Shown here in pieces: positions 24,681 to 41,640 of a stretch of DNA of 64,000 bases. The notes below the pieces were generated by a model. That model saw nothing but the letters and a program-made list of their open reading frames with translations, did no database searches and was not told where the DNA came from. The stretch covers positions 2,486,501 to 2,550,500 of the forward strand of contig OZ005698.1 in NCBI GenBank assembly GCA_963930775.1, written 5' to 3'. Numbering within the stretch: the first letter of the stretch is position 1; each line of letters starts with the position of its first letter. The DNA comes from Cliona cf. orientalis. Taxonomy: Eukaryota; Porifera; Demospongiae; Clionaida; Clionaidae. Position numbers and translations under genes: made by a program.

Positions 24681-25045
24681 TATAGTATTGTTACTGGCTC
24701 CAAGTGGTCTGCTGAATGCATTTGGGGCTGTGTACTCTTGTTCAGAGTAATCCCTCTTCAGGGCCATCCCTGATGAGCTGCCTACCATATAATATCTTAA
24801 TCCACTAGTATTGTTACTGGCTCCAAGTGGTCTGCTGAATGCATTTGGGGCTGTGTACTCTTATTCAGAGTAATCCTTCCATCCCTGATGAGCTGCCTAC
24901 CATATAATATCAAGGGGTCTTAATCCACTAGTATTGTTACTGGCTCCAAGTGGTCTGCTGAATGCATTTGGGGCTGTGTACTCTTATTCAGATTAATCCT
25001 TCCATCCCTGATGAGCTGCCTACCATATAATATCAAGGGGTCTTA
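24681..25045. repeat. ~122-bp tandem repeat, three units
   Basis: Three units with tattgttactggctccaag, tggtctgctgaatgcatttg and ccctgatgagctgcctacc. Copy A has a single unit at 10684-10760, so this is a local amplification after duplication. Confidence 0.85.
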
Positions 25046-26785
25046 ATCCACTCTTGATAATAATACATCTAGGAAGAAATCCCTGAGATAAGGCCCACCC
25101 CTCTATAGTATCATTTGCCAATGGTGGCCACTATAAGCCCACACTGCGAGGGGGGGGGGGAGGGGACAGGACATTATAATTATCGATGCAGAAAAGGTGG
25201 GAGGACCTGAGGATAAAGCGAATCTGAAGCTACATGTAAGCTGGTACTTATTTTGATTAATATTTTAGGAAGGAGAGGAAGATGTTTGAGACATACCAGA
25301 AGCAGGCCAGGACTGCCAGGGACAGAAAGGAAAAGGAAGATATCACAGCACTCAGGAATCAAGTAGGTTGGATTGATAGTTGTTCTAAACCGCAGCATCT
25401 CTAATTATCTTGATACAATGTACCCTTTACCGAATGCCAAATACATGTACATGTAGTTTGTCAGGTAACTTTCACTAGTCACTAGTACTTACATGTAATT
25501 ATGGTTTTCATATTAGCATGGAATATGTACTAGTACTAATACGTGTACAATGTGCATGTATGTGTATAGTAACTTGATATTAGAATACTGTACATGTATG
25601 TGTATTAATTTCAGCTTCAGGAGTTGCAAGAGGATGTTAGCCAGCGTGAGTCTCGCTGGGGGTCGGCCCAGTCCAGGCTGAGGCTGAGGATACAGAGCCT
25701 GGAGAAGGAGAACCAGGAGCTGCGCTCTGACCTCAAGATGATGGAACAGACAAGACTTCAGCTGTGGCAAAAACAGGTAAGGGTGTGGTTGGGGGGGGGG
25801 GCGCTTGATGTCTACAGAGTTCAGAAAAAAATGGATGTGAAAAAATTTTGATGGGAAAGTTTACAGGATAAAATTTTCACACTAACCACTAGGCCTTAAA
25901 ATTAATATTTTGGCTGAAAACCCTTACATGCACATATACATATATTATCTCTATAATTTCTTCTTGTGAATTTGTAAGTAAGGAGGGTGGCAATAACTAG
26001 ATACTTGCAATTCTATATACATGTACCTGATCAGATGGAGCAGGAGCTGGAGCATGCCAAGAGGAGGAGGAAGGAGCATCGTAGTGTTACCCCAGAGGTG
26101 GAGGCCAGACCAGTCCAGGGCCAGGGCATCAGTGATGCTGTATCAGATGGCTACCAGAGTGACAGGGAGGCAAGTGACATCTCATCGAGGGCAGAGGAGA
26201 TTACTCAACAAGTCGTAGAAGATGATCAGTGTAAGATTATCCATACAGTGTTGTTACAGGAATAATAGGATATGCATTATGTACAGTGTACATGTACATG
26301 CACACAGCAGCTTAAAATGATCTCAATTGCTTGTGGGAGGGTGTGTCATCATGGTTCTATGCCACTTTGTAAAACTTGGAATAGTTGCCTATTGCATATT
26401 ATTATATTTATGTATAGTTGATGGACAAACCAGGAGAGTACCAAGTGGTGAGCTGAAAGACCACTTTCCCTCTGACGGCAGTGAACAGACAACCACCACC
26501 AGTGGAGTGGAGGAGGAAATCCATATTAGGAAGAAGGTGGTGGGAACCAGCATCATCAATGACTCTAGGAAGAAACCAGTGGGCAAGCGTATCTGCTTCT
26601 CCACAGGCCCCAGGAGAAAACCTAAACCTCTCTCCTTGTCTCCCTCTAAGAGATTGTCACAAAGTGCTAAACAGCAGAGAACCAGCCCGAAGAAGAAATC
26701 TACTGTTTCCCTGTCCCCTTTAAAGAGTGAAGGAGAGGGTGGGAGGACTGTGAGGGAGAGGGCAGGGAGCTACAGTGATGGAACA

Positions 26786-28162
26786 GTAAGATTCAATCTA
26801 GTCATTGCATACACATGCAGGGCTGCATTTAGGGGGAGGCGCGGGGAGGGGCAATTCCCCACCCACTCCACCACCCCCTTGAGATTCATAGTGTGGCTTT
26901 GACATGGGAATTTACCAACCCCTGGTACACCCAAAAGGCATTTGCCCGCCACCCTCCCCCCCCCCCCCCCGAAATGCTGCCTTGACATGTACATGTATGT
27001 TAGTGGTCCTACATGTGCATATGCCTTTTATTTGTATTTATGCAAGCATCCATTGAGACAACGGTATGTTTCTTATTATACAAGATTAGCCAGGGATGGC
27101 TAAATGCTAACCTCATCCCCAGGCCACTCCCACATGTTCAATGTTACACGCAGAAAGGGAGAAGGCCTGGTATGTAATTGCACATGATCAGCCGGCTTCT
27201 GCATAAAGTATGGGAAGGGTAGGGGAAGGGTACAAATTATGTGTACTTGCGGGTGTGCGCACGAATGTTAGTCATGTGAAATTAGATACCAGGCTCCCCC
27301 TCTTCTTTCGCGTGCGTTGAAAAAGATCTGGGAGCCTGGGGACGAGGCTAGCTAAATGCCACATCAGGGCCACTGGCAGCCTCTTCTTAATGGTCCATAT
27401 TGCTGTCCTAGCTTTAACTAATTAGACCCTCTTATTCAGCACGTGTCCAGACATTAATTTGAGTGAATGGGATGGATGATCGAATTAAGGTCTTGGAACT
27501 CCCCTCCCCCTCCCTCCCCCTCCCCAAAAAACAAACACACCTACACATGCATACACAGTGTCACACACTCATAGCTGTTATCTATAGTAACTGAAATGTT
27601 AATCACCAAATACTAGATGGGTACTGTTGAACTAGACAGATGAAAGGCAGACATTGGCCAATACTCGAGTATATAAATCTCCTTCATTAGCCTTGCAACC
27701 ACTAAAATTACATATACCGTAGTGTCCTGCAAATACGCCCCCCCCCTCGCGCATGAATGGGGTGAGGGTGTACACCAAATGATGCACTTTCATTGGGAAA
27801 AGCTGCCATAACAGGGCAAGAGATGCGCAACGAAAATGGAACGGGGAAATGATTTAGATCCAGTTGTGGAATGAGTTCCACTGGTTTCAAGTTAGTGTGT
27901 TCCCCAGTGCACCCAACTGCAGGCTGCAGCGTGGCCAATGGTGTGAGAGCTTTGCTGGAGTACTTAACAACCGTTCCACAGATTGTGGTCACTCTTGTAT
28001 GGATGTCAGCGATGAAGGCTGCTATCACACTGTCTGCTTCTCGACTGGGAAATGAGGTAGGTAGGCTCTTGAAGACACAACAGCCTGGGTAGCTGAGGGA
28101 AATGAGAGAATCATGTCTCAAGTGCGAGTGTCTGACAAAGCTTAATACCATCAGCATCACAT
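26786..28162. other. Gap after CENPJ copy B
   Basis: No gene recognised. Contains poly-C/poly-G runs, a CCGTA-like start at 27717 (taccgtagtgtcctgc) and a 150-codon minus frame (28160-27708) with no domain I know, for example SLSYPGCCVFKSLPTSFPSR. That frame stops just short of the foldback element and may be part of a mobile element or chance. Confidence 0.5.
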
Positions 28163-28235
28163 GGTAGTGAGCTCATGTAAGGTGTATCTAGAAAGTGAAA
28201 GTTAATCCAATTACTATAATTAGGGATGTTATTTC

Positions 28236-28905
28236 TGGTGCTCTTGGTGCCCTTTGTGTCAATGGTGCCCTTGGTGCCTCTGGTGTCATAGGTGCCACTG
28301 GTGCCCTTGTGTCCCTGGTGCCACTGGTGTCGTTGGTGCCCCTGGTGTCGCTGGTGCCTCTGGTGTCGCTGGTGCCTCTGGTGCCCTTGGTGCCTCCGGT
28401 GTCGTAGGTGCCTCCGGTGCCCTTGGTGCCCCTGGTGCCTCCGGTGTCCTTGGTGCCCCTTGTGCCTCTGGTGTCGCTGGTGCTCTGGTGCCCTTGGTGA
28501 CCCTGGTGTCGTAGGTGCCTCTGGTGTCGTTGGTGCCCCTGGTGCCTCTGGTGTCGCTGGTGTCCTTGGTGCCCCTGGTGTCGTAGGTGCCTCTGGTGCC
28601 CTTGGTGCCCCTGGTGAGACCTGGTGTTGTTAGTGCACCTGGTGTCGTAGGTGCCTCTGGTGTCGTTGGTGCCTCTGATGTCGTTGGTGCCCCCGGTGCC
28701 TCTGGTGTCGTTGGTGCCCCCGGTGCCTCTGGTGTCGTTGGTGCCCCTGGTGCCTCTGGTGTTGTAAGTGCCTCTGGTGCCCTTTGTATCGTTGGTGGCC
28801 TTGGGGCTTTTTGTGTCGTTGGTGCCTCTGGTGTCATTAGTGCCCTTGGCGTTGTTGGTACCTCTAGTGCCCTTGGATTTTTTGTTGGTGCCTCTCGTGT
28901 CGTTT
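28236..28905. repeat. Left-arm 9-bp minisatellite
   Basis: About 74 units of consensus ggtgcctct / ggtgtcgtt / ggtgccctt; the complement of the right-arm array. Confidence 0.95.
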
Positions 28906-29432
28906 CAGCCTTTGCACATATGACATGCATATACACACATGAAGTACGGAGTATAACCCCGGATCCGTATTGTATGGTTTTGGTGCTATTTTGCTATTAT
29001 TGCTCTTTTGCTATTGATAGTAGCAAAATAGCCCAAATAGCAAAATAGCACAGCTTCCAAAACTCTCTAACTAAAATAGCAAAATAGCACTGCATAGCAT
29101 AGCAGAACATCATCACTTACAATGATCATCATCAACCATCAATCATAATTTTATTATCTCATTATCATAAAAACAATAATGTTATTATTATAGTACACTT
29201 ATTAAAAATTTAATTATCATGATTACCGATTGATTGAATATTACATAATAATTATACGAATGATATATATTATAAATGAGCTTTACAATTATTCATCTAT
29301 GGGTGAGACAAAGATTAGATCTAAAGTAAAATAGAAACTGCTGGAATAGTGGCATGTGTAATACAAATTTTGCAGATCCGGACTTGTACTCTGTACTTCA
29401 TGTGTGTATATATGCATGTCATATATGCAAGG

Positions 29433-31075
29433 TTCCAACGACACCGGATAACAAACCAAGGGCACTAGAGACACCAAAGGCATCAAAGGCACCAACAACA
29501 CCAGAGGCACCAAGGACACCAGAGGCACCAACGACACCAGGGGCACCAGACACACCATTGACACCATGGGCACCAATGACACAAGGGGCACCAGAGGCAC
29601 CAACGATACCTAAGGCACCGACGACACCAGGGGCATCAAGAGCACCAGAGGAACCAAGGGTACCAGGGGCACCAACGACACCAGAGGCACCAGAAGCACC
29701 AGAGGCACCACCGACACAAGAGGTAACACGGGCACCAACGACACAAAAGGCCGCAGAGGCACCAAGGGCACTAGAGGCACCAGAGGCACCAGAGGCACCA
29801 GGAGCACCAGAGACACCACTGACACAAGAGGCACCAAGGGCACCAAGAAACAGCAAAGGCACCAACGACACCAGAGGCACCAGGTGCACCAAGGGCACCA
29901 GAGGCACCAGCGACACCAGGGGCACCAGTGGCACCAACGACACCAGAGGCACCAGGGGCACCAGAGGAACCAGGGGCACCAAGGGCACAAGAGGCACCTA
30001 CGACACCAGGGGAACCAAGGGCACCAGAGACACCAGCGACACAAGGGGCACCAGTGGCACCAATGACACCAGAGGCACTAGTAGCACCAACGACACCAGA
30101 GGCACCAATGACACCAGAGGCACCGGGGGCACCAAGGGCACCAGAGGCACCAGCGACACCAGAGACACCAGTGGCACCAACGACACCAGAGGCACCAACG
30201 ACACCAGAGGCACCAGGGGCACCAAGGGCACACCAAGGGCACCAGAGGCACCAGTGGCACCAACGACACCAGAGGCACCAGGGGCACCAAGGGCACACCA
30301 AGGGCACCAGAGGCACCAGTGGCACCAACGACACCAGAGGCACCAGGGGCACCAAGGGCACCTGAAGCACCAGCGACACAAGAGGCACAAGAAGCAACAA
30401 GGGCACCAGAGGCACCTACGATACCAGGGGCACCAGTGGCACCAACGACACCGGAGGCACCATGGGTACCAAGGGCACCAGAGGCACTTACGACACCAGG
30501 GGCACCAAGGGCACCAGAGGCACCAGCAACACCAGGGGCACCAAAGGCACCAAGGACACCAGAGGCACGAGCGACACCAGAGGCACCAGTGGCACCAATG
30601 ACACCAAGGCACAAGAGGCACCAAGGGCACCAATGGCACATACGACACCAGAGGCACCAGAAGCAACAAGGCCACCAGTGGCACCAACGACACCAGAGGC
30701 ACCATGGGCACCAAGGGCACCAAGGGCACCAGAGGCACCAATGACACCAGGGGCACCAAGGGCACCAAGGGCACCAGAGGCACCAACGACACCAGGGGCA
30801 CCAAGGGCACCAGAAGCACCAGCGACACCAGGGGCTCCAGGGGCACCAGGGGCACCAAGGGCACCAGAGGCACCTACGACACCAGAGGCACCAGGGGCAC
30901 CAAAGGCACCAGAGGCACCAGTGGCACCAACGACACCAGAGGCACCAGGGGCACCAAGGGCACCAGCGACACCAGGGGCACCAATGACACCAGAGGCACC
31001 AGAGGCACCAGAGGCACCTACGACACAAGAGGCACCAAGGGCACCATCAACACAAGGGGCACCAAGAGCACCGGA
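29433..31075. repeat. Right-arm 9-bp minisatellite
   Basis: About 180 units of ggcaccaga / ggcaccaac / gacaccaga. Higher-order units of 63 bp are visible near 30218-30345. In three plus frames it would give Gly-Thr-Arg, Ala-Pro-Glu and His-Gln runs; in minus frames Leu-Val-Pro, Ala-Ser-Gly and Trp-Cys runs. Confidence 0.95.
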
Positions 31076-31147
31076 AATAACAACCCTAATTATAATAATT
31101 TGGATTAACTTTCACTTTCTAGATACACCTTACATGAGCTCACTACC

Positions 31148-32365
31148 CATCACATGCCCCCCTCAACTGTTACAGTGAGTCATGTGGAGTAGGTAATGGT
31201 CGTCACAGGCGAAGTAGGTTAGCTATGCTCCATCCGCCCCCTTAGGTAAAGGTCGTCAGGGGTAAAAAGAGGTGTTAGCGTAATGGACTATATTCCACCC
31301 ACCCTTCACAGTACAACGCGACACATAATATTATATATATTTAGATCCTAGTTGTAACAAATACTGTTATCTGATTGGTCAGGAGCAGGTATCTATTTCT
31401 CATATAAACCTGTAAAAAGCTCATATAGCTAAACCTGTAAATTTTTCATATAAACCTGTAAAAAAATTGTTGCCTGTGGTTAGGATTGTTGCTAGGCAGC
31501 AGTTTATATGTCAAGCCTATGGGCATTGTTGCTAGGATCTAAAGTTGTTAGACACTGTTCAGGAGGTTTCTACGTAATTTAGAAGACCGAAGGGCTCTAT
31601 GTAGAATCCCGAGCGAAGCGAGGGTTCTACTGAGCCCTGAGGTCTTCTAAATCACATAGAAACCGACCTTCATACAGCAGTGTTATCCCCCATACATGGT
31701 AAATTAATGGTCACGGGATTGTGGCTGTAATTGCACAAGGTGCACACTCCCAAGCATGCTGTTACATAGCTAGTACTAACAAAATGAAGTGGCTCCCCCC
31801 AATTGTTATATTATTATGTATCTGCTTGTTCTTCTCTCCCATAGATCATGAGGATAGTGCAGCAGGTCTGTCGAGAGGGAGAGGTCGGAAACACATCTCT
31901 GCTATACTCCTGACTGTTTAATGTATAGTGACAAGTTTTTAAGTAAATTTTTTATTCGTGAGAAAAACAGAGGCTTCAGCTACACAATATAAATCCAGGT
32001 GCACAGGTATCACCCCCAGGTGTTCGAGTGAGGTGAGTTATGCTGTATCTACAGTGCTAAAAGCTGTTGCTGGCCATGTAACTTCATTTGGAGTGTGTAA
32101 CCAGCTATGCAGCTCCACTCCAAATACCTATATTATATATATGTCAATGCTCGGAGTGAATATCATGTGCAACCAGCAGCTAGACACTTCCACTAAGACT
32201 ATGTTACTTCAAACTTTAATTTCATCATGATCATTATTTTGACAAATCTCATATAAGTATGATTAGAAGAATAACTGATAATGACATTGTGATACTTTAA
32301 TGTCCAACTAACTACATTTTTGTCCATAGTCTTTAATTTCACAGATCATCAATTGAAGAGTGAAA
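31148..32365. other. Spacer with hairpin element
   Basis: No gene recognised. It holds three short repeats of catataaacctgtaaa (31400-31460) and the hairpin at 31551-31683. The open frames 31721-31921 and 31958-32230 show no family features. Confidence 0.5.
31551..31683. mobile_element. Short hairpin element (MITE-like)
   Basis: Arms acactgttcaggaggtttct and complementary agaaaccgacc...cagtgtt, with tttagaagacc/ggtcttctaaa; loop tcccgagcgaagcgaggg. Same style as the hairpin at 907-1025: near-perfect stem and a GC-rich palindromic loop. Confidence 0.7.
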
Positions 32366-32980
32366 TCAGTTGTAAACTATTTTCATAGAGAGCGTTTTAT
32401 CGTTAAACGGCTGGCAAAGAGTTGTGGTACAGAAGTTGTACGTTCCTGGACCGAACTCTGTCTTACCATGGAGCGAAATTTTAGTGCCTCCATAATCATA
32501 TCCAGAGTAGAGGCTCCATACTCCTGAAGAGACTACAAAGCTGGACACTCGACCTCCAATAGCACCGACATTAGGAGTTGAAGCAGTAAACACATGCGGT
32601 GTACCATGATTAGCATAACTATCAAACAGTGTGATTTTATATGAAAGTAACTTCACAGATAGAGTTGCATCATTATACGGCTGGCACAAAGTTGTGGTAC
32701 AAAAGTTGTACGTTCCTGGACCAAACTCTGTCTTGTCATGGAGCGGAATTTTAGTGCCTCCATAATTATATCCAGAGTAGAGACTCCATCCTCCTGAAGT
32801 GACTACAAAGCTGGACACTCGACCTCCAATAGCACCGACATTAGGAGTTGAAGCAGTAAACGTGTACGGTGTGCTAGTATTAGCATAACTATCAAACAGT
32901 GTGATTGAACCTCCAGATGCAAGTGCTGTTGCAGTTATTGCCAACAAGCAATATAAAGACCAAACCAGATGATTCATCAT
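32366..32980 (-). CDS. Secreted two-domain beta/gamma-crystallin-like protein
   Basis: Single-exon frame of 204 aa. Residues 1-22 (MMNHLVWSLYCLLAITATAL) are a signal peptide. Two tandem domains of about 88 residues follow, close copies of each other: ITLFDSYAN, TFTASTPNVGAIGGRVSSFV, WSLYSGYNYGG, EFGPGTYNFCTTTLCQP, then the same again. The hydrophobic-aromatic strand pattern with W-x-LY-x-x-x-YGG resembles the second Greek-key motif of beta/gamma-crystallins; sponges are known to have such proteins (geodin). Each domain adds a CTTTLC pair that could be a disulphide. The start is the first of two ATGs after a TATA box (33055-33048) 68 bp upstream. An upstream extension of the frame (to 33058) would place the signal peptide inside, so it was rejected. 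Role unknown; possibly structural or calcium-binding. High similarity of the two domains points to recent internal duplication. Confidence 0.8.
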   Translation of the reverse strand: MMNHLVWSLYCLLAITATALASGGSITLFDSYANTSTPYTFTASTPNVGAIGGRVSSFVVTSGGWSLYSGYNYGGTKIPLHDKTEFGPGTYNFCTTTLCQPYNDATLSVKLLSYKITLFDSYANHGTPHVFTASTPNVGAIGGRVSSFVVSSGVWSLYSGYDYGGTKISLHGKTEFGPGTYNFCTTTLCQPFNDKTLSMKIVYN

Positions 32981-33719: not shown

Positions 33720-34110
33720 TTTCCACTTACCGTGTCCTACGGCCCTGTTAAATTAATAGGTACTTGCAAACTGTCAGGCAGGTAGTAAAGTTGGCAAGAA
33801 TTTTGTACAGGCAGCTAGATTAAGTGTCAGTTGCATGCACATTCATTGGTTGCCATGGTATAATTATAGGATATAGGTAGCCAAGCAGAGAGCATGCATT
33901 AATGCACAGATGGCTCTTTAGGTACTTGCAAAATGTCAGGCAGGTATGTAAAGTTGGCAAGAATTTTGTATAGGTAGCTAGAATAAGTGTCAGTTGCATG
34001 CATATTCATTGTTGCCATGCATGGTAACATGGTAGCCGTGCAGAGAGCATGCACTGATGCACAGTTGGCTCTTTAGGTACCTGCAAACTATCAGGCAGGT
34101 ACCGTAAGTT
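33720..34110. repeat. ~170-bp satellite unit, three copies
   Basis: Units contain ggtacttgcaaactgtcagg, aaagttggcaagaattttgt, gctagattaagtgtcagttg and gcagagagcatgca. The same unit makes the longer array at 41010-41640, including the flank ccacttaccgtgtcctacgg, so the two loci share origin. Confidence 0.85.
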
Positions 34111-41009: not shown

Positions 41010-41640
41010 CTACGGCCCTATTAAATTAATCATAGGTACTTGCAAACTGTCAGGCAGGTAGTAAAGTTGGCAAGAGTTTTGTACAGACAGCTAGATTAAG
41101 TGTCAGTTGCATGCACATTATAGGATATAGGTAGCCAAGCAGAGAGCATGCACTGATGCACAGATGGCTCTTTAGGTACCTGCAAACTATCAGGCAGGGT
41201 ATGTAAAGTTGGCAAAAATTTTGTACAGGTAGCTAGATTAAGTGTCGGTTGCATGCACATGCATTGATTGCCATGCATGGTAACAATAAATATCATAGTG
41301 GTAGCTGTGCAGAGAGCATGCACTGATGCACAGATGGCTCTTTAGGTACCTGGAAACTATCAGGCAGGTATGTAAAGTTGACAAGAATTTGTACAGGTAG
41401 CTAGATTAAGTGTCGGTTGCATGCACATGCATTGATTGCCATGCATGGTAACAATAAATATCATAATGGTAGCTGTGCAGCCGGAGAGCATGCACTGATG
41501 CACAGATGGCTCTTTAGGTACCTGGAAACTATCAGGCAAGAATTTTGTACAGGTAGCTAGATTAAGTGTCGACCAGTTGCATACACATGCATTGGTGCCA
41601 TGCATGGTAAACAATATTAATAATAGTACTAGCATAGCAT
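41010..41640. repeat. ~170-bp satellite array, about four units
   Basis: Units with ggtacctggaaactatcagg, aaagttggcaa, ttttgtacaggtagctagat, gttgcatgcacatgcattga and gagcatgcactgatgcacag. Same unit as 33720-34110. The two minus frames reading MHGNQCMCMQPTLNLATCTK are repeat translations, not genes. Confidence 0.88.

Follow-up and report, generated by a model that had tools for sequence, protein, structure and literature searches.

Fold-back-like transposons with 9-bp minisatellite arms in the genome of the sponge Cliona cf. orientalis

We describe an inverted-repeat element of 2,985 bp, located at positions 28163-31147 of the window (the whole 64,000-nucleotide stretch of Cliona cf. orientalis DNA that was analysed), which is very probably a fold-back-type class II (cut-and-paste) transposon that is non-autonomous and moved in trans. 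Two sets of features fit the foldback structural class: long and unequal tandem-repeat arms standing between unique outer and inner blocks, and dispersed copies with target-site duplications, the ends being present at 72 sites in the host genome. The first-pass annotation of this DNA had read the element as a fold-back-like transposon, and both its structure and its dispersed copies bear this out.

The element begins with GGTAGTGAG at each end and is flanked by exact 8-bp target-site duplications, CATCACAT, at 28155-28162 on the left (plus strand) and at 31148-31155 on the right (plus strand). The outer blocks, of approximately 73 bp each (28163-28235, plus strand; 31074-31147, minus strand), are inverted copies with 97% identity. 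The first ~43 bp of the left block are common to a second arm type and to MITEs (see below), and the remainder is AT-rich and type-specific. Inwards of these blocks lie two arms composed of the same 9-bp minisatellite, GGTGYCNNN, in opposite orientation, 670 bp on the left (28236-28905, plus strand) and 1,639 bp on the right (29437-31075, minus strand), lengths which are those of the assembly and of the arrays as delimited here. Each arm is followed by an inner block (28906-28961, plus strand; 29372-29432, minus strand), the two being inverted partners with 89% identity over 53 aligned bases, and these enclose a core of about 0.4 kb (28962-29371, plus strand) without recognised protein domain. 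The inverted ends with their 8-bp duplication, the unique outer and inner blocks, the 9-bp array facing opposite ways, arm lengths of about 670 and 1,640 bp and a core without visible transposase had all been put forward from the letters alone, and each was upheld on measurement.

The arrays of the window element have periods of 9, 18, 27 and 45, and their GGTG strand runs inwards on each side. Their autocorrelation peaks at lags 18 and 27 and is high at lags 9, 36, 45 and 54, with 0.31-0.32 at lag 10, and from one GGTGYC motif to the next the spacing is a multiple of 9 in 92% of cases in the left arm and 96% in the right. The two arms match each other as inverted repeats, with up to 78% pairing over a length of 308 nt. 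Long open frames cross the element, mostly as read-through of the arrays, and a Pfam scan of five frames returned collagen as the sole match, on both strands. Elsewhere in the window we observed two tandem arrays 7 kb apart whose units, 155 and 168 bp long, look related (33757-34101 and 41139-41538), as well as long-period tandem repeats of 270 and 123 bp (32399-32906 and 24683-25052).

The search for copies covered the host genome (216.8 Mb), with the reversed pattern as control. The terminal 32-mer was found at 58 sites with at most three mismatches and the terminal 19-mer at 72 sites with at most two, with a control of 0 in each case. The whole core occurs at four places, on contigs C10 (the window), C15, C3 and C16, and the C10, C3 and C16 cores are 94%, 92% and 90% identical, respectively, to that of the C15 copy; partial core, a GCTATTTTGC-type repeat, is scattered at further places. 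All four core-bearing copies have arms of the 9-bp array (hereafter A-type) in inverted orientation, and in each of them the arms have the ends on their outer side. In the C3 copy the ends are 16.8 kb apart because some 12-13 kb of ~1.8-kb tandem repeats (L011/L036/L010, C3:5.459-5.476 Mb), lying within the left arm of the fold-back, splits the left array in two. The C15 copy has a second A-type array beyond its left end (L009, 1-760), within a direct flank duplication of ~0.6 kb. Other copies with these ends had been named beforehand in the first-pass annotation as a point on which its reading would turn, and the 72 sites and four cores supply them. With 58 and 72 end sites against none in the control, and full-length cores at four separate places, chance and assembly error are both unlikely. 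Since the cores are 6-10% divergent from the C15 copy, the present activity of the family is doubtful. Outside this genome, the exact terminal 19-mer was looked for in viral contigs and in the prokaryote collection, with 0 matches in each.

Target-site duplications were sought at 12 end pairs. Exact and abutting 8-bp duplications occur at three of these, in unrelated flanks, namely at the window element (CATCACAT), at a 209-bp MITE (L026; AATGAATC) and at a 15.9-kb element (L031/L032; CCTGTGCA). At other pairs an 8-bp duplication stands 7 bases (L016) or 1 base (L011/L010) away from an end, or there is a 7/8 match (L019), a 7-base match shifted by two bases (L029) or an abutting 6-base match (L030). 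No convincing duplication was found at 4 of the 12 pairs (L009, L033, L044 and L021). The element had also been proposed as a likely source of rearrangement, for which we have only a few suggestive copies: these four pairs without recognisable duplication and a single array joined to a Mutator-like element.

The same first ~43 bp of the end also precede a second type of arm (B-type), whose unit, TCTTGTGCATTCTCTGTG, is 18 bp long and whose arrays have sub-peaks at lags 9, 27 and 45 (0.41-0.47), compared with 0.22-0.24 at lag 10. Elements of this type measure 8,775 bp (L029), 3,351 bp (L030), 2,684 bp (L033) and 15.9 kb (L031/L032, with arms of 3.7 and 3.8 kb), and there are single-ended or partial representatives at L028, L041 and L048. 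Their cores have common blocks at 80-96% identity, in which no transposase was recognised. The ends are found as well in short forms of 209 bp (L026), 144 bp (L019) and 137 bp (L044), together with two end pairs only 58 and 60 bp apart (C2:2164884 and C11:1956198), which are known by their coordinates only. Finally, a GAACTC subtype makes up 12 of the 72 end sites, and three examples were read, each within one ~1.3-kb repeat. These loci (L034, L035 and L047) hold, inside that other repeat, the short remnant of an A-type fold-back bounded by GAACTC ends, and thus represent one repeat spread by another.

The comparison of arms by k-mer profiles (k = 20) provides clues on how they change. It comprised four two-armed A-type and four B-type elements, single-armed loci being excluded and the left arm of the C3 copy entering with its inner piece only. 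In the A-type, arms from the same side of different elements have a mean similarity of 0.48, as against 0.39 for the left and right arm of a single element and 0.40 for opposite arms across elements, and the true side labelling is the best of 8 possible. This pattern is suggestive of descent by side, left arms from left arms and right from right, among the four elements. Hairpin exchange between the arms of one element is not seen in this type, as these are no more alike than opposite arms across copies. In the B-type the corresponding values are 0.38, 0.39 and 0.33, and the true labelling is again the best of 8; descent by side is weaker here, given that the two arms within an element resemble each other as much as same-side arms do, and some exchange between them is possible. 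Change in the arrays can also be followed in three segmental duplicates on C7 (L012-L014; C7:1.286, 1.304 and 1.352 Mb), whose flank and interior are 99.2-100% identical. In their 0.63-kb end-plus-array stretch, the three pairwise comparisons contain six gaps, four of 9 and two of 6 bases; stretches other than end-plus-array have gaps too, of other sizes. These 9-bp steps, which are accompanied by a 6-bp step, agree with a change of the unequal arms by repeat units; that the arrays expand or contract independently had already been advanced for the window element. At the same three loci a frame for an AIG1/GIMAP-like GTPase (L012:1395-2516) adjoins a lone A-type arm, and the two were copied together in the segmental duplications.

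The units show no similarity to the end sequence beyond chance (all p > 0.2), and the 9- and 18-bp units themselves, which align over 15 letters if four gaps are allowed, have no demonstrable relationship (shuffle p = 0.056). What the two array types behind one 43-bp end have in common is a 9-bp phase, an inward polarity and an inward-reading strand that is poor in A (A 3-5% versus T ~35% in one, A 10-13% versus T ~48% in the other). It is a long shot that the arms are a device in which selection acts on period, polarity and strand composition and not on sequence. If this were true, the arm would be a transferable module acting by spacing, for example through phased transposase binding or strand-specific pairing in transposition.

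The A-type array is far from confined to these ends. A 33-mer of it has 1,381 genome matches at up to three mismatches (control 0), the best 100 of which fall into 32 loci, 12 of them with both strands; all 12 run plus then minus, that is, inwards (C5:4658716 and C5:4692294 have equal spacing and may be duplicates of each other). Among the loci from these best 100 of 1,381 matches, no known end lies within 2.5 kb at 9 of the 12 with both strands and at 22 of all 32, and these ends alone thus fail to explain the spread of the array. The nine inward-facing loci in question are C1:13020576, C13:1053532, C13:7965477, C18:1013379, C5:4219314, C5:4658716, C5:4692294, C7:6864880 and C7:8948622. The end-less loci might be either older or diverged members of the family, or cases of the array travelling with other ends. 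Parts of two of them were read, and at the one array edge reached (L062) the flank resembles the GAACTC-subtype subterminal block over 27 bp.

An array present at many places without these ends, which in one frame reads Gly-X-Y with a Pfam collagen match (E 2.9e-19), brings to mind a host minisatellite, such as a collagen-like coding repeat, that was duplicated in inverted form and next to which the ends are incidental. However, the opposite strand gives a collagen match as well (E 1.2e-14), and a collagen origin of the array was rejected on this ground; the match is spurious, since a 9-bp unit containing GG yields it by itself. This is also a warning for gene prediction, in which 9-bp repeats with GG may produce convincing yet spurious collagen matches. 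Moreover, the ends are found outside the arms wherever the core is shared, the array faces inwards at 12 of 12 both-strand loci (best 100 of 1,381 matches), and the exact 8-bp duplication abutting both ends of the window element makes a host minisatellite hard to hold, so that we regard it as very unlikely. Long tandem arrays are difficult to assemble, and the inverted arrangement could in principle be an artefact of a collapsed or inverted repeat. Nevertheless, separate copies at four places have core, array polarity and ends in common, and exact duplications stand in three unrelated flanks, which renders an artefact extremely improbable.

To envisage what moves the element, which we read as a non-autonomous transposon, we searched the host genome for six transposase families and set the matches against the 72 end sites, all family counts being lower bounds. 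No match of the six families stood between paired ends, nor did an autonomous relative sharing these ends, recommended as a target in the first-pass annotation, come to light. Among the matches listed, the nearest to an end lies at 90 kb for KDZ (Zisupton group; at least 41 places from 68 matches, pieces merged), 109 kb for MULE (at least 58 matches) and 55 kb for hAT (at least 148 matches compared, 150 of 230 candidates having been scored), 3.1 kb outside a GAACTC-subtype end for the P-type (at least 111 places from 118 matches), and 14.9 kb outside an end for Merlin (at least 67 transposase-domain matches). A PF20700-like protein occurs in at least 118 places (146 matches, pieces merged), and L041 is the only one within 40 kb of an end. 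Pfam scans were run on 29 open frames inwards of ends and on five pieces of the L041 gene, and beyond piggyBac and retrotransposon genes the frames gave host-type domains or nothing. The piggyBac transposase, 3.3 kb inside a solo end (L020), was read as a neighbour or nested element, as were the retrotransposon genes at L017 and L023; piggyBac leaves TTAA.

Judging by the ends, with their 5'-GG termini and 8-bp duplications, a Merlin-superfamily transposase is tentatively the most likely mobiliser, Mutator-type and P-type transposases being the main alternatives. Merlin elements have 5'-GG termini, 8- or 9-bp duplications and ends of 24-462 bp, and tandem repeats have been reported inside them (PMC8101967, available in part); the arms of the window's family are far longer than such ends. 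Merlin copies are present in the host genome: one (L058, 579-1951) has 91-bp inverted ends, GGTAAGAC/GGTTAGAC, and an 8-bp duplication, CTTTTTAG, and the second that was read (L057) has no such end pair and duplication. Only the first four letters, GGTA, are common to the L058 ends and those of the present family. With so few shared letters, and no Merlin transposase between paired ends, we do not file the element under Merlin.

The strongest pointer towards a Mutator-type, Rehavkus-like mobiliser is L041, which might be its decayed autonomous form. This locus has an end at 504 and an 18-bp array at 628-2443, followed on the opposite strand by a broken gene, its 3' side towards the array, with matches to Mutator-like PF20700 (E 6.9e-8), weakly to an Ulp1 protease (E 0.0015) and to a PHD finger (E 4.8e-5, narrowly below the curated threshold). 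Rehavkus elements likewise combine a PHD finger with a minisatellite before the 3' end (PMC6446971), Tm1 was assigned to Mutator (PMC3169594), and in one paper most foldback elements seemingly belong there (PMC4079207/PMC3169594), as far as the available parts of these sources go. In contrast, the L041-type transposase occurs at over 100 places, most of them on contig C1, and among the 118 compared none but L041 has an end within 40 kb. In four other copies read at the junction, the place of the L041 array is taken by a different sequence that the four have in common. L041 also lacks the inner block that follows the array in L030, L031 and L033, and its junction therefore looks like a break inside an array. 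Furthermore, Rehavkus duplications are 9 bp long, versus 8 bp in all three exact cases here, and overall such a mobiliser is unlikely. A THAP-type transposase of the P superfamily would, by analogy with Galileo, move the element and bind sites in its arms. In the parts of the Galileo accounts available, about 40 bp of the ends are kept between species, the long arms consist of family-specific tandem repeats and secondary binding sites are demonstrated (PMC3688188), and the host genome has at least 118 matches to a P-type transposase domain. Yet Galileo duplications are of 7 bp (PMC3573991) rather than 8, none of at least 111 P-type places lies between paired ends, and the nearest listed is outside an end of the GAACTC subtype, whose three read examples are inside another repeat; this mobiliser appears quite unlikely.

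The Mutator-like transposon of which the L041 copy holds pieces (Mutator domain, Ulp1-like protease and PHD finger) deserves mention in its own right. With an open frame of up to ~1,150 aa, it is present in many copies at C1:17-37 Mb, a strong concentration in the distal half of this largest contig. Many hAT-type matches likewise map to the distal half of C1, which may be an unusual chromosome region.

For the preferred reading, a non-autonomous fold-back transposon, we put forward the following course of events. Conservation of the ends rather than the arms, together with the 8-bp duplications, leads us to infer a transposase acting in trans. Encoded elsewhere, it would recognise the ~43-bp ends, excise the element and insert it into staggered target DNA, an insertion that would leave the 8-bp duplications observed. 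The arrays would lengthen or shorten by whole units, such as the steps seen between segmental duplicates, probably through replication slippage, and would be carried along by side, as the four elements of the window's family suggest. By analogy with Galileo, they probably add secondary transposase-binding sites or represent tolerated filler.

Inverted arms filled with short tandem repeats are known from Foldback (FB) of Drosophila melanogaster and from TU of the sea urchin, with duplications of 9 bp in FB and 8 bp in TU, and with units of 10, 20 and 31 bp in FB and 15 bp in TU. Compared by description only, the window element is like both in its short-repeat arms and unlike them in unit lengths. 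Foldback elements are mentioned in sea urchin in the Tetris account also (PMC4079207), and the comparisons that follow draw on the available parts of the respective publications. Tetris of Drosophila virilis is non-autonomous too, with outer, tandem-repeat and inner arm domains around a non-coding middle, ends partly common with a MITE, duplications of 8-10 bp, no autonomous copy identified and repeats that also occur in longer arrays; its repeats, however, are of ~220 bp and may derive from the outer domain (PMC4079207), whereas here they are of 9 bp and have no detectable similarity to the ends. Tm1 of root-knot nematodes (Mutator/Foldback) has composite arms with short terminal motifs, 13-15-bp tandem repeats and an inner motif, and resembles the present family in its unequal arms, variable repeat number, MITE-like relatives and some copies without duplication. 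It differs in its mostly 9-bp (8-10) duplications, a 14-bp unit and a transposase-bearing group (PMC3169594), in contrast to the 8-bp duplications, 9- and 18-bp units and lack of any transposase-bearing copy found here. Galileo of Drosophila similarly joins conserved extremities of ~40 bp to family-specific long arms whose tandem repeats change in number independently, with chimeric copies lacking matching duplications, but has 7-bp duplications, ~210-bp repeats and a known transposase (PMC3688188, PMC3573991). Rehavkus elements, also DNA transposons, carry a minisatellite beside one end; unlike here, it stands at the 3' end only, with 9-bp duplications and their own PHD-finger transposase (PMC6446971).

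Since repeat-filled inverted arms are described in Drosophila (Foldback, Tetris and Galileo) and in root-knot nematodes (Tm1), the novelty is smaller than the first-pass annotation had claimed. No such element in sponges was found among the leading matches in the open-licence literature. In the available parts of the Tm1, Tetris and Galileo accounts (PMC3169594, PMC4079207, PMC3688188, PMC3573991), we saw neither a 9-bp unit nor arms inherited by side, nor two array types of equal phase, polarity and strand bias behind one end. The present family thus adds to these systems a set of fold-back elements whose arm repeats are very short (9 bp). Its genome-wide set could show what moves such elements, the question left open for Tetris, and is large enough to study the evolution of arms through unit-by-unit change, inheritance by side and the placement of different arrays behind a fixed end.
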